From assembly GCA_943788895.1 (NCBI GenBank), contig CALSRZ010000003.1:1-64000 (forward strand): DNA of 64,000 nucleotides, in the 5' to 3' direction. Positions 26,775 to 59,358 of this stretch are shown one piece after another. The position numbers and the translations under genes are program-made. The notes below the pieces were generated by a model that worked only from the letters and a program-made list of their open reading frames with translations, had not been told where the DNA came from and did not search any database. This DNA comes from an uncultured Pseudomonadales bacterium. Its GTDB lineage: Bacteria; Pseudomonadota; Gammaproteobacteria; Pseudomonadales; Porticoccaceae. Each line of letters begins with the position of its first letter. The stretch's first letter is position 1.

Positions 26775-28616
26775 ATGACCGACGTTACTCAAAAACAACA
26801 ATCCGGCATTAAAGATCTTATCGCTAAGGGTCGCGAGCAGCGCTACCTGACTTATGCTGAAGTAAATGATCACCTTCCCGAAGATATCGCCGATCCGGAA
26901 CAGGTCGAAGATATCATTCAGATGATCAACGATATGGGTATTACCGTTTTTGAAACGGCCCCAGATGCTGAAACTCTGCTGATGCTTTCCGGGGACAATA
27001 CTCCCGATGAAGTCGCCGCCGCTGAAGCTGCCGCCGCTCTGGCATCGGTTGAATCTGAACAGCACCGCACCACTGACCCAGTCCGTATGTATATGCGTGA
27101 GATGGGCTCGGTTGAACTGCTGACCCGCGAAGGCGAAATTGAAATCGCCAAACGAATTGAAGAGGGAACCCGCGAGCTGATGGCTGCGGTTTCCGACTGG
27201 CCAACCACCGTTGGCACGATTATCACTGAATACGAGAAAGTCGAAGCCGGCGAACGCAAGCTGGTCGATATTATCAGTGGCTACCTGAATCCCATGGAGC
27301 ACGTACCATCAGCCCTGGCGCAGCAGCAAGCCGCTGAAGCGCTGAAGCTGGAGAATGGCGACACTGAGGAAGAAGACGAAGAGGAAGAAGAACAACACGA
27401 AGGCGGGCTTGACCCGGAAGTAGCTTTCGAGCGTTTTGATGCCATTCGCAAGCAGCTGAAGAAAACCGAAAACTCTATCTCTCGCTACGGTCGCGACAGC
27501 GATTCCGGCAAGAAAAACATCGCCGAATCTGGCCGACCTCTTTAAGTATCTGAAACTGACACCGCGTCAGTTTGATCCGCTGATTGCCAAAGTTCGCATC
27601 ACTGTAGAGCGTGTTCGCTCTGAAGAGCGCAAGCTTATGAGACTCTGTATTCGCCTCGGCAAGATGCCGCGCAAAGAATTTATCACTAAGTTCCCAGGCA
27701 ACGAAGCCAACCTTTCATGGGTTACTGAACTGGCTAAATCAGACGAGCCTTGGGCTGAGAAAGTTGCCAACCAGGAAATTGATATTCTTGCGCTCACAGC
27801 GCAAGCTGGCGCAAATTGAAAAACACAGCGGCATGAATGTCGCCGCGATTAAAGATATCAACCGTCGTATGACCATGGGTGAAGCCATGGCCCGTCGCGC
27901 CAAGAAAGAGATGGTTGAGGCCAACCTGCGTCTGGTTATCTCGATCGCCAAGAAGTACACCAACCGTGGCCTGCAGTTCCTCGACTTGATTCAGGAAGGC
28001 AATATCGGCCTGATGAAAGCGGTTGATAAGTTTGAATATCGTCGCGGTTACAAGTTCTCCACCTATGCAACCTGGTGGATTCGTCAGGCGATCACCCGAT
28101 CGATTGCCGACCAGGCGCGCACCATCCGTATTCCGGTACATATGATTGAGACTATCAATAAGCTCAACCGTGTATCTCGCCAGATGCTTCAGGAAATGGG
28201 TCGCGAGCCCACTCCGGAAGAATTGGCAGAACGTATGGAAATGCCTGAAGACAAGATTCGTAAAGTGCTTAAAATCGCCAAAGAGCCGATCTCCATGGAG
28301 ACGCCGATTGGTGAAGATGAAGATGCCAGCATTGGTGATCTTATCGAAGATACCACTATCGCCCTGCCCTTGATGAAGCGACCAGCAATAACCTCACCGA
28401 GTCCACCCGTGATGTTCTGGGCAGCCTGACGCTAGAGAAGCAAAGGTACTGCGTATGCGCTTCGGTATCGATATGAATACAGACCACACGCTGGAAGAAG
28501 TCGGCAAGCAGTTCGATGTAACCCGTGAGCGTATTCGTCAGATTGAAGCCAAGGCACTGCGCAAGCTGCGTCACCCGACTCGCTCGGATCATCTGCGTAG
28601 CTTTATTGACGAGTAA
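26775..28616 (+). CDS. rpoD: housekeeping sigma factor RpoD (sigma-70), four frameshifts
   Basis: The primary sigma factor, about 613 residues once the frames are joined. Region 1.1 starts at the ATG at 26775, and region 1.2 has [20 protein letters not shown]. An acidic non-conserved insert ([14 protein letters not shown]) follows. Region 2 has [20 protein letters not shown] and [14 protein letters not shown]; region 3 follows; region 4 has [19 protein letters not shown] and ends LRSFIDE. Breaks fall near 27525 (before [10 protein letters not shown]), 27797 (an extra T in CTTGCGC before [10 protein letters not shown]), 28365 (a missing C near GCCCTG, before DEATSNNL) and 28435 (ACGCTAGA lacks a G, before [10 protein letters not shown]). 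Because rpoD is essential and every block is otherwise conserved, these are most likely sequence errors. Confidence 0.95.
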
Positions 28617-28631
28617 GAAAGAGTTAAATAC

Positions 28632-28796
28632 TGAATTTTTGGTTTAGAGCAACGCCGCGATAAGCCAAAAAGGCAATGTCAGGTTTAAACGCCGAATTTT
28701 TGGCTTAGCGCAAGCGCGCAGCGATTGAAGGAGCATACATCGGTATGTGACTGAGAGAGCGAAGCCGCGCAACGCCGCGATTAGCCAAAAAGGCAA
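28632..28796. repeat. intergenic palindromic repeat elements after rpoD
   Basis: The 190-base gap between rpoD and the tRNA contains two related elements. AACGCCGCGA-T-AAGCCAAAAA (from 28651) and AACGCCGCGA-T-TAGCCAAAAA (from 28771) are direct repeats 120 bases apart. Each is the right arm of a long imperfect hairpin whose left arm is TTTTTGG(T/C)TTAG (28636 and 28697). A small inner hairpin, CATAC-ATCG-GTATG, lies at 28735-28747. It looks like a repeated extragenic palindrome family; it may also end rpoD transcription. Confidence 0.6.
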
Positions 28797-28806
28797 GTTT
28801 AAAAAA

Positions 28807-28883
28807 GGGCCCATAGCTCAGTTGGTTAGAGCAGTCGACTCATAATCGATTGGTCGTAGGTTCAAGTCCTACTGGGCCCACCA
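28807..28883 (+). tRNA. tRNA-Ile2 (CAT anticodon, lysidine type)
   Basis: A 77-base cloverleaf with encoded CCA. The acceptor is GGGCCCA / TGGGCCC, the D arm GCTC/GAGC, and the anticodon loop CTCATAA with CAT at 28841-28843. The variable loop is TGGTC and the T arm GTAGG-TTCAAGT-CCTAC. A CAT anticodon could mean Met or Ile2. The anticodon arm and variable loop closely match enterobacterial ileX (CGACTCATAATCG, then TTGGTCG) and not elongator tRNA-Met, so AUA-reading Ile2, modified by TilS, is preferred. Its position just after rpoD fits pseudomonad-like synteny. Its 3' end is echoed in each unit of the following array. Confidence 0.9.
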
Positions 28884-28884
28884 T

Positions 28885-29560
28885 TCTCACCTACGGTTCG
28901 ATGTTGAACCCGTAGGACTAATCCAGTCAGCTCTCTTTATATCTTCGATAATGTCGCTGCCGTTCGGCTGTTACAACAGCCTCACCCTACTGGGCCACTC
29001 CTTAGTCTCACCTACGGTTCGATGTTGAACCCGTAGGACTAATCCAGTCAGCTCTCTTTATATCTTCGATAATGTCGCTGCCGTTCGGCTGTTACAACAG
29101 CCTCACCCTACTGGGCCACTCCTTAGTCTCACCTGCGGTTCGATGTTGAACCCGTAGGACTAATCCAGTCAGCTCTCTTTAACTCTTCGATAATGTCGCT
29201 GCCGTTCGGCTGTTACAACAGCCTCACCCTACTGGGCCACTCCTTAGTCTCACCTACGGTTCGATGTTGAACCCGTAGGACTAATCCAGTCAGCTCTCTT
29301 TAACTCTTCGATAATGTCGCTGCCGTTCGGCTGTTACAACAGCCTCACCCTACTGGGCCACTCCTTAGTCTCACCTTCGGTTCGATGTTGAACCCGTAGG
29401 ACTAATCCAGTCAGCTCTCTTTATCTCTTCGATAATGTCGCTGCCGTTCGGCTGTTACAACAGCCTCACCCTACTGGGCCACTCTCTAGTCTCACCTACG
29501 ATTCGATGTTGAACCCGTAGGACTAACCCAGTCAGCTCTCTTTAACTCTTCGATAATAAG
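28885..29560. repeat. 121-bp tandem array (5.6 units) with tRNA 3'-end copies
   Basis: Units start at 28885, 29006, 29127, 29248, 29369 and 29490 (partial, ending near 29560), all exactly 121 bases apart and about 97% identical. Each unit holds a strong hairpin, CCTACGGTTC / GAACCCGTAGG, around GATGTT (one bulge; arms vary slightly in units 3, 5 and 6), a second perfect hairpin GGCTGTT-AC-AACAGCC, and at its end CCTACTGGGCCAC, which copies the tRNA-Ile2 3' end (CCTACTGGGCCCAC). No open frame runs through it. The structure resembles the repeats behind Escherichia coli tyrT (rtT RNA), where every unit also carries the tRNA tail. Confidence 0.93.
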
Positions 29561-29567
29561 TAAATCA

Positions 29568-29593
29568 GCCTAAGCCCAACACAGGACTTAGGC
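29568..29593. terminator. hairpin ending the tRNA array / fasciclin gene
   Basis: GCCTAAG / CTTAGGC with a 12-base loop lies between the last repeat unit and the stop of the minus-strand fasciclin gene. T-rich sequence follows on both strands but no clean T-run, so it may be a shared terminator. Confidence 0.4.
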
Positions 29594-29610
29594 CGACATT
29601 GTCATTTTGA

Positions 29611-31833
29611 TTACAAAGGTCTCTGAATTAAATTATCAGTAATCACCGTATCAATCACATGAATCACACCATTGGTTGTGTAGATATCAGTGGTTGTCAC
29701 ATTTGAACCCTGAACCTGCAGAGACACCTGCTCCTGACTCACCGACCACCAAACACCACCTAATCCATCGCCATTGTTGTCACCAGGGGCCGAATCACTT
29801 TGGAAGAAATACAGCGGGCGACCCAGATAAGCGGCCTGTTTGGAATCGTCATCTCTGGTGATAATGCTCAGTCCGGGAATATTGCTGACCTCATCATCAG
29901 TGACCAGCACCGGAGGCCATGCCACTGCACAGACACTACTACAGGCACTACTGGAAGTTCCAAGATCCTCATCGAAAACATAGAGCGTATAACCCGGTTG
30001 CGCGCTATTGCTGCCACCGACAAGCATTTCCATTTCACTGTTATAAGCGACTTCGTCGTTTGCAGCATTGGTTGTCTGGGTGAAGTTAACCAGATTGACG
30101 CTAACATTATCACCGCTGGCAGCTCCAACATCTGTGCCATTGGCTGCAAAGGCGTTTAATGCATTGATTTCGGCACCGGAGACAACATGATTTAACAGCA
30201 CACTACTCAGGGTGGTTGTATCTGCAAGCAGATCGCTCAGAGCAGTGCTTTCAATCTTTGCAAAGGCATCATTGGTTGGCGCAAATACAGTGAAAGTTGC
30301 ATTCTCATCGGCCAGGGTGGTGACCAGATCAGCCGCGGTAAGTGCATCGACAAGTGTTGAGAATCGAGGATCGGAGGTTGCCACATCGACAATACTCACA
30401 GTCGGTTCAAACTTAGTTGCCAGAGGTAAAATAACTTGGTCAATCACATGGATAACGCCGTTATCAGCCGTTATATCGGTGAGTGAAACTGCTGATTTAT
30501 TGGCATATAGAGTCCCATCAGACAGTGACAGAGATATATCCTGATTAACGGCCGTGGTTACCATCTTATTGGCCGACTGAGCAATCGTAACAGCCGTGTC
30601 CTGAAGAACTATGCCATCGGGCAGCACATGGTTTAAGAGGATGCCTGAAAGAGTAACTGTATTTGCAAGCAGGGAATCAATGGTTTCCTGTCCTAGAAGC
30701 GCAAAGGCATCATCTGAGGGGGCAAATACCGTGAAGTTTGTCTCTGGATCATCGAGCACTGTATCCAGACCGGTTGCCTGCAATGCAGCTACTAAGGTGG
30801 TGAAATTTCCATTGGCCATGGCGACATCGACAATAGACATCGCGGGGCCCGGCAATTCAACATCTGCAACCACCACCATATCAATCACATGGATCACGCC
30901 GTTGCTGGCATAGATATCCTTTACGGTTACCGTGGCACCACCAAATAACAGGCTGTTAAGAGCATTGTTGATCGAAACCGGAATAGCCGCGCCGGAGAGT
31001 GTCGATGCTGACTGCCCATTGAGGGAGAAAGCGGTTGTCGACAATACCTCAGCTTCAACAACATGCTGTAGCAGTATATCTGCCAGCACATCCGGGTTGG
31101 CCAGTAAGTTGGCGATAGTTTCTGCACCAATCATGGCAAAGGCTTCATCTGTAGGTGCAAAGACAGTAAATGATCGGCTTTCATCAGCCAGTGCAGCATC
31201 TAATCCAGCTGCCTGAAGTACTGAAACCAGAGTATCGAAAGAGCCGGCGGCAATGGCGGTTTCGACAATATTCAGGGTTGGCTCTGCTCTATCTGCCAGC
31301 GGCATTAAAACCGCATCAATCACATGGATAATGCCATTATCTGCCTGGATATCAGTGACTGTAACCGTAGCAAGATTGACCAGTAAATTTTCACCATCCA
31401 GAGATAAACCAACTTGATCGCCATTGACCATCTCTACAAGGGTACCGGCACTTGCCACTGCAGTTGATGCATCTACTTCTCCACTGATAACGTGGTAGGT
31501 AAGAATATCGGTGAGCGTATCTAGATCATTGAGCAGCCCATCTATGGTTTCCTGACCCAGAAGCGCAAAGGCATCATCGGTGGGGGCAAATACGGTAAAG
31601 GAGCCACTGGTATCGGAGAGAGTGGCATCCAGCCCGGTTGCCTCAAGTGCCGCAACCAGAGTGGTAAAGTTTCCATCGGCAACGGCGACATCAACAATCG
31701 TTGTGGCAGTCGGTTGCGGGGTTGTATCTATTGGGGTATCTGTCTCATGAATACTGCTGGTGTTGCTGCTTCCGCAAGCCTGTAAAAAAAACAGACTTAC
31801 AACTGCAATGCTGAATAATTTAAACTTTTTCAT
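29611..31833 (-). CDS. lipoprotein with four fasciclin (FAS1) domains and a nested secreted-repeat domain
   Basis: A 740-residue surface or periplasmic lipoprotein. The signal peptide ends in a lipobox (FFLQACGSS). Four FAS1 adhesion domains begin near residues 44, 190, 338 and 480, each with IVD/E..A...F.TLV...L, FTVFAPT(D/N)(D/E)AFA and a closing NG(V/I)IHVID. In the fourth, about 110 residues are inserted before the last strand: YTLYVFDEDLGTSSSACSSV then CAVAWPPVLV and LGRPLYFFQSD. This matches the secreted-repeat family with Yx(F/W/Y)xxD motifs (PF03640 type). Neighbouring FAS1 units are close enough to have arisen by duplication. The gene stands alone. FAS1 proteins mediate cell-cell or matrix contact; the ligand here is unknown. 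Confidence 0.9.
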   Translation of the reverse strand: MKKFKLFSIAVVSLFFLQACGSSNTSSIHETDTPIDTTPQPTATTIVDVAVADGNFTTLVAALEATGLDATLSDTSGSFTVFAPTDDAFALLGQETIDGLLNDLDTLTDILTYHVISGEVDASTAVASAGTLVEMVNGDQVGLSLDGENLLVNLATVTVTDIQADNGIIHVIDAVLMPLADRAEPTLNIVETAIAAGSFDTLVSVLQAAGLDAALADESRSFTVFAPTDEAFAMIGAETIANLLANPDVLADILLQHVVEAEVLSTTAFSLNGQSASTLSGAAIPVSINNALNSLLFGGATVTVKDIYASNGVIHVIDMVVVADVELPGPAMSIVDVAMANGNFTTLVAALQATGLDTVLDDPETNFTVFAPSDDAFALLGQETIDSLLANTVTLSGILLNHVLPDGIVLQDTAVTIAQSANKMVTTAVNQDISLSLSDGTLYANKSAVSLTDITADNGVIHVIDQVILPLATKFEPTVSIVDVATSDPRFSTLVDALTAADLVTTLADENATFTVFAPTNDAFAKIESTALSDLLADTTTLSSVLLNHVVSGAEINALNAFAANGTDVGAASGDNVSVNLVNFTQTTNAANDEVAYNSEMEMLVGGSNSAQPGYTLYVFDEDLGTSSSACSSVCAVAWPPVLVTDDEVSNIPGLSIITRDDDSKQAAYLGRPLYFFQSDSAPGDNNGDGLGGVWWSVSQEQVSLQVQGSNVTTTDIYTTNGVIHVIDTVITDNLIQRPL

Positions 31834-59212: not shown

Positions 59213-59358
59213 TTAAAATTTTCCGTGAAATGTCAGGTCAGGGTTAGCAAAATGTTACTTCAGCCGGATATGCTATATCCTTGCGAACCAGAACGCCAGA
59301 GAGAGTACTGACCAAGGTATTTAATCAGGTGTTTATCGAACAGTTAAAGAGAGCTTGA

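Follow-up and report, generated by a model that had tools for sequence, protein, structure and literature searches.

Does the array of 121-bp repeats behind a tRNA gene in the 64,000-nucleotide stretch of DNA from a marine SAR92-type bacterium analysed here (the window) belong to the same kind as the tRNA-distal repeats of Escherichia coli tyrT? The tRNA gene was detected by ARAGORN and Rfam. ARAGORN names it Met (CAT), while we take it to be tRNA-Ile2, given its sequence type and its location behind rpoD. TRF placed an array with a period of 121 bp, 5.6 copies and 97% matches at 28885–29557 (Table 1), as the original prediction had it. Exact copies of CCTACTGGGCCAC start at 28986, 29107, 29228, 29349 and 29470 and form the ends of the five complete units. 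That every unit ends in a copy of the tRNA 3' end is therefore true for these five, but not for the truncated sixth. Likewise, the copy had been described as almost identical to the tRNA tail: CCTACTGGGCCAC and the tail of the tRNA, CCTACTGGGCCCAC, indeed differ by one deleted base, but the copies in the window array lack the CCA of the tRNA (it is kept in two relatives, G018 and G002), and the spacing from the tRNA tail to the first unit tail is 118 instead of 121. Allowing for up to two mismatches, CCTACTGGGCCAC was found six times in the window (five unit copies and the tRNA itself), compared to a mean of 1.15 and a maximum of 4 in shuffled sequences; together with the TRF result this rules out a chance repeat. 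That is, we identified tandem units distal to a tRNA, the complete ones of which end in its 3' end.

Table 1. Coordinates of the tRNA gene, the repeat units and associated features in the window.
Feature	Positions	Strand	Basis
tRNA gene, anticodon CAT, read as tRNA-Ile2	28807–28883	+	ARAGORN, Rfam
Unit 1, 121 bp	28885–29005	+	
Unit 2	29006–29126	+	
Unit 3	29127–29247	+	
Unit 4	29248–29368	+	
Unit 5	29369–29489	+	
Unit 6, truncated, without tail copy	29490–29557	+	
First copy of the tRNA 3' end, CCTACTGGGCCAC	28986–28998	+	exact match
Hairpin H1 of unit 1, CCTACGGTTC/GAACCCGTAGG, recurring every 121 bp	28890–28916	+	predicted fold
Hairpin H3 of unit 1, GGCTGT/ACAGCC, recurring every 121 bp	28966–28981	+	predicted fold
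Inverted repeat with minus-strand T-run, likely terminator of the convergent fasciclin-domain gene	29564–29597	-	scan

The two hairpins expected for each unit were recovered as H1 and H3 of the predicted fold, with a weaker hairpin (H2) in addition. A single unit reached a minimum free energy of -30.3 kcal/mol versus -23.0 for shuffled sequences (z -2.1), and the tRNA folded together with two units gave a z of -4.7. No open reading frame of 30 or more amino acids overlaps the array, which rules out a coding array. Scanning 28600–29700 revealed neither a sigma-70-like promoter nor a terminator-like site on the plus strand; the sole terminator-like site lies on the minus strand (29597–29564), with shuffles averaging 0.8. 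Two genes follow behind the array, with fasciclin and leucine-rich-repeat domains. GCTCTCTTTAAC might be read as boxA-like; in the window's genome, the longer pattern is confined to the array and one other place. A known RNA family was rejected as an explanation, the tRNA alone reaching an Rfam gathering score in the window, and so was a phage or virus origin (no match in two pattern scans of viral contigs).

In E. coli, tyrT/tyrV (rtT, RF00391) shares with the Ile2 array tandem units behind a tRNA and on its strand, rich in hairpins and ending in a copy of the 3' end of their own tRNA. An additional E. coli unit is located between the two tRNAs. The systems differ in period (178 bp in E. coli versus 121 bp), in the tRNA and in sequence; the E. 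coli units keep the CCA that is missing from the Ile2 copies in the window, and one of them contains the tpr reading frame. The RtT model matched four units at E. coli tyrT/tyrV, each of which ends in the tail copy, but gave no match on 28600–29700 at E values up to 5. The tyrT architecture with a different sequence, as originally proposed, is supported. Since the array is not matched by RtT and not significantly by model R1 (see below), we classify it as a new tyrT/rtT-like variant, not as a member of RtT. We give an even chance to the analogy in full, namely that the array is a tRNA-distal repeat working like E. coli tyrT/rtT, including a function at the RNA level.

The role of rtT, which dates to a 1991 paper (cited in PMC4986893), is still loosely defined. 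In the passages concerned of PMC4986893, the RtT RNAs Arrc20 and Arrc21 of Actinobacillus pleuropneumoniae are tRNA-linked and were detected by northern blot; the RtT RNAs of this species are described upstream of Asn- and Lys-tRNA genes, RtT is tied to many tRNA operons, and it is presented as acting on or modulating the stringent response. The tRNA linkage of RtT as such is, by these passages, not new. Unlike for the Ile2 array, the same passages on Pasteurellaceae RtT mention neither a tandem array nor a cognate tail copy. An E. coli cell-division mutant strain that had lost RtT and one tyr tRNA gene was viable, according to a passage in PMC12584984.

We then looked at relatives. BLAST searches covered 93 other genomes, 49 of them from the same genus as the window's genome (G000). 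G017, a single contig (OX044363), contains a homologous array of 5.6 units of 121 bp, and G018 (SAR92 clade bacterium H231, JAOALC) one of 3.6 units of 113 bp, three of them identical, with an exact tail copy. In G002 (JAFMBY), two contigs each carry one unit plus part of a second, whereas G038 (JAHEHL) has half a unit only, at the same place. In G018 and G002, the tail copy matches without a difference as far as CCAT. A sixth BLAST match (24 nt in G056) was attributed to chance. Given the separate arrays in G017 and G018, an assembly artefact is unlikely to be behind the array. Overall, Ile2-type units occur in 5 of the 50 genomes of the genus according to BLAST and, by pattern, in three of 390 genomes of the order samples, all three within the genus. 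R2 recovered such units in two of 194 genomes of the order sample, plus two places without a tRNA; as those in G091 and G156 were taken as false (no tRNA in the 3.1 kb fetched), R2 E values near 4e-4 are unreliable. G011 and G021 gave just a weak R2 match behind the tRNA (15–17 bits). On a contig labelled Halieaceae, a single 99-bp unit (R2 31.5 bits), whose tail copy is exact, stands behind the tRNA. Its hairpins differ, while CACCT, GGACTA.TCCAG and TCACCCTACTGGGCC are unchanged; by eye, no rpoD end is present in the 640 bp upstream of it.

A search for arrays behind other tRNA genes of the clade had also been proposed. RF00005 detected 31, 37 and 39 tRNAs in G000, G017 and G018, respectively, and ARAGORN 31, 37 and 38 (fetched stretches, duplicates removed). 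Searching with the 12-nt T-stem/acceptor core (at least 11 of 12 positions matching), we found a copy of the cognate 3' end no more than 700 bp downstream of 18 of the 106 tRNAs (seven in G000, six in G017, five in G018) versus none upstream (0 of 106). Foreign cores, used as control, matched in 10 of 3,590 tests. The Met hits, one in G000 (+90) and one in G017 (+89), may represent a decayed second tRNA. Strict cognate copies stand behind 10 isoacceptors in these three genomes, and the Ile2 array also has its copy within 700 bp downstream on the same strand. This outcome of the proposed check, like the homologous arrays in relatives, supports part of the original interpretation.

By eye, a common layout can be recognised in the units that stand behind tRNAs for Arg, Leu, Ser, Ala, Lys and Tyr. 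CCA comes first, frequently with a terminator-like hairpin after it, then an arm similar to the reverse complement of the end of the tRNA, and GGTTCGAC.AA; next come hairpins, then ATCAATCC or a related sequence, and lastly the tail or what is left of it. E. coli tyrT/tyrV shows this layout, too. An apparent terminator precedes the unit behind many other tRNAs (by eye), so that transcription there would need read-through. Compared to such tRNA-distal units, those of the Ile2 array are shorter and have no terminator-like site before them. Some single units fold with an anti-tail:tail helix (Ser-TGA, Tyr of G018, E. coli). As a general rule this closing helix was ruled out, since cognate and foreign tails scored alike: among 49 distinct places (52 of 72 typed), mean pairing was 6.76 of 12 for cognate versus 6.53 for foreign tails, and at least 9 of 12 positions paired in 3 of 49 cognate versus 73 of 2,262 foreign combinations. 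The suggestion that the repeats serve as a general bait for tRNA enzymes was not upheld: the copies match the preceding tRNA, those of Ile2 are without CCA, and anti-tail pairing is not general.

Model R1 was trained on ten units behind eight isoacceptors from G000, G017 and G018; the R1 hits in these genomes and the covariation rows include the training units, whereas those in other genera and families do not. At E values up to 0.05, and with 150 of the 784–1,038 first-look candidates per genome scored (a lower bound), the three genomes contain at least 59 R1 places, 52 of which have a tRNA no more than 1.2 kb upstream. At least 9 of 31 tRNAs in G000, 12 of 37 in G017 and 6 of 37 in G018 have one or more R1 units (for this linkage, two partial tRNA-Val matches of G018 were left out and 37 of 39 kept). 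Seven places lie elsewhere: by eye, two follow an apparent tRNA 3' half, a third is located in the T-loop of a tRNA remnant and a fourth in the D-loop of fragments of tRNA-Ser(GGA), whose intact gene lies further downstream; two more precede tRNA genes by 50 and 123 bp, and the last is not close to any tRNA. Based on 40 of the 59 places, R1 units stand behind 13 isoacceptors. Their right flank agrees more closely with the cognate tRNA than with foreign tRNAs (6.05/10 versus 3.64/10; at least 8/10 in 12 of 40 cognate versus none of 797 foreign comparisons), and so does the T-stem 3' half (full fit in 20 of 37 versus 24 of 328, three tRNA-Val rows left out). Within the first R1 helix, all eight pairs changed on both sides among 63 distinct rows, in 88 cells versus a shuffle mean of 21 and with none of 500 shuffles as high, in an alignment that was fitted to the helix and leans towards it.

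Across the order, R1 was found at 73 or more places in at least 26 of 86 genomes (own included) and at least 18 families including that of the window, at E values up to 1e-5 and with 49 candidates scored under stricter filters, again a lower bound. We fetched 28 of the 55 order places outside G000 (the top place per genome for 25 genomes, plus three second places). The nearest tRNA is upstream in 21 of the 28, at 61–88 nt in 19 cases and at 229 and 253 nt in two; five of the other seven run into a CCA-type tail. Ile2 units are absent among the R1 matches at E values up to 0.05: they scored 9.0–13.8 bits (E 0.1–2 in a small search), and the four E. coli units 7.6–13.8 bits. The array is real and is one instance of a more widespread pattern of structured repeats linked to tRNA genes, with rtT as the known example. 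Somewhat short of an even chance, in our judgement, is the further step of an order-wide structured RNA family located in the T-loops of partial tRNA copies directly behind (rarely before) many tRNAs, usually with a cognate piece; such a family, undetected by Rfam above threshold in the loci scanned, would include rtT and the Ile2 array as divergent branches. If true, it would amount either to a general layer in the biology of tRNA transcripts or to a module that parasitises tRNAs.

In a rival account, a mobile hairpin module might enter tRNA loops (the T-loop, rarely the D-loop) with local duplication that leaves one tRNA intact; the arrays would be footprints left by it, and an RNA function, if there is one, would come second. 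The Ile2 units, with GTAGG before and CCTAC after the insert, can be read in this way, as T-stem halves around an insert. By eye, three tRNA-Val copies interrupted in the T-loop by a module precede an intact tRNA-Val in G018 (C4:594755-595353), modules occupy the D-loop of 5' fragments of tRNA-Ser(GGA) upstream of the intact gene (G018, C4:81000-83000), a tRNA remnant of G017 carries a module in its T-loop, and the module in the units behind tRNA-Phe of G017 and G018 looks inverted. Moreover, one R1 place (23.3 bits) is oriented opposite to its tRNA, the tRNA-Phe of G000. Yet the strand of the tRNA is shared by 51 of the 52 linked places and by all 21 such places of the order sample. Y1 transposases (PF01797), the sole mobility family sought, were not found in G000 (93% complete) and are single in G017 and G018, and we rejected them as the mover. 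We consider a mobile module unlikely.

Somewhat more doubtful still is neutral tandem duplication downstream of the tRNA, with gene conversion alone keeping the units alike. It would account for the identical copies in G018 and for the higher identity of units inside G000 (97.1%) compared to that between G000 and G017 (91.6% on average). The recent expansion or conversion that had been proposed from the high identity finds weak support in the first value, but identity is 92.6% within G017 and hardly lower between the genomes. In the best BLAST matches, which as local matches favour the conserved part, units of G018 and G002 are 77% and 80% identical to those of G000. Fourfold sites of dnaG and yqeY (codons agreeing in the first two bases) are 58.6%, 42.3% and 44.3% identical to G000 in G017, G018 and G002, respectively. 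By this measure, the non-coding unit is better conserved than silent sites, and conversion inside one genome does not explain 77–80% between genomes with 42–44% at fourfold sites. Neither does neutral duplication fit the linkers GGACTA.TCCAG and TCACCCTACTGGGCC, unchanged on the Halieaceae contig.

Compensatory changes in the Ile2 units are few. Among seven units, 88.8% of the cells of H1–H3 pair and four pairs changed on both sides (shuffles: mean 1.7, with 6 of 500 reaching four). Pair types show no excess (5 versus 5.2 in shuffles), and with partners slid by -3 columns there are still three pairs with both-sided changes. H1 alone, on 12 sequences, has one both-sided pair (83 of 500 shuffles), a weak sign.

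The 3' side of tRNA-Ile2 looks like an integration hotspot: an open reading frame of 310–329 codons lies directly behind it in G004, G033, G008, G016 and G048 (that of G004, L068:4251-5237, is a Pfam phage integrase and the other four begin alike), partial tRNA-Ile2 copies occur about 0.5–3.6 kb away in several genomes, and the half unit of G038 adjoins an apparent integrase remnant (by eye). That the units are attachment-site remnants of elements integrating there is nevertheless quite improbable, as the partial copies measure 43–73 nt and not 13–16, the unit is conserved, E. coli tyrT shows the plan without an annotated integrase in the 2 kb seen, and there is no integrase among the two genes behind the window array, with their fasciclin and leucine-rich-repeat domains.

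For the tyrT/rtT-like reading speak the homologous units that G017, G018 and G002 carry at this position (half a unit in G038), unit identity above that of fourfold sites, the both-sided pair changes in seven units together with the covarying R1 helix, the Halieaceae-contig unit with its exact tail copy, the cognate tails and R1 units behind other tRNAs with their same-strand bias, and the plan of E. coli tyrT along with the northern blots of A. pleuropneumoniae RtT (passages in PMC4986893). Against it we count the rarity of Ile2-type units in the genus and order samples, the lack of significant recognition of the array by RtT and R1, pair types as in shuffles with three pairs for slid partners and a weak H1, the apparent terminators before units behind many other tRNAs, and the viable E. 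coli mutant without RtT (passage in PMC12584984).

Judged from sequence, the tRNA and the units most likely share a transcript, from which the units are freed as structured RNAs. A complete unit would be a structured segment (H1, the weaker H2 and H3) whose end repeats the T-stem and acceptor 3' strand of the preceding tRNA. Co-transcription with tRNA-Ile2 is suggested by the scan, in which no plus-strand terminator lies between tRNA and units. Maturation of the tRNA 3' end may then free the trailer in one or more RNA pieces of about 120 nt, while tail copies and whole units would allow recombination or slippage to alter the copy number and homogenise the units. A putative RNA function, within the tRNA transcript or in trans, would keep the unit conserved, as it is observed to be.

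What appears to be new are R1 units and strict cognate tails behind many isoacceptors in one marine genus, with strong covariation. In the literature searched, which left most subscription papers out of reach, we found no description of cognate-tail repeats behind many tRNAs. tRNA-distal repeats across isoacceptors, with R1 in 18 families, offer natural replicates for asking what their role is. Among known RNAs, AaHKsRNA22 (RF02902), a name not found in the literature searched, matched units behind the tRNAs for Leu, Ser and Ala in the window's genome below threshold (best match 34.9 bits, E 0.004, cut-off 39.8) and gave no match on the Ile2 array at E values up to 5. The 3' ETS of leuZ is a tRNA spacer RNA sponge that is released from a tRNA transcript; unlike the Ile2 array, it is not known to be tandem or to carry a tRNA tail copy. 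Integron attC and Vibrio repeats are of similar length, with GTTRRRY and RYYYAAC ends and gene cassettes; the Ile2 array contains no open reading frame of 30 amino acids.

Some minor observations concern the surroundings of the locus. The rpoD gene (26775–28615) is split over reading frames, most likely by indel errors, which are probably present in the window assembly. Between rpoD and the tRNA, at about 28660–28795, lies one copy of a second repeat. In relatives, tandem repeats lie upstream of the tRNA: 125 bp x 3.9 in G017, 116 bp x 2.2 in G018, 123 bp x 2 in G010 and 260 bp x 2.4 in G035. Finally, the minus strand at 59333–59354, upstream of an orn-looking gene, reads GCTCTCTTTAACTGTTCGATAA, one letter off the array's GCTCTCTTTAACTCTTCGATAA.
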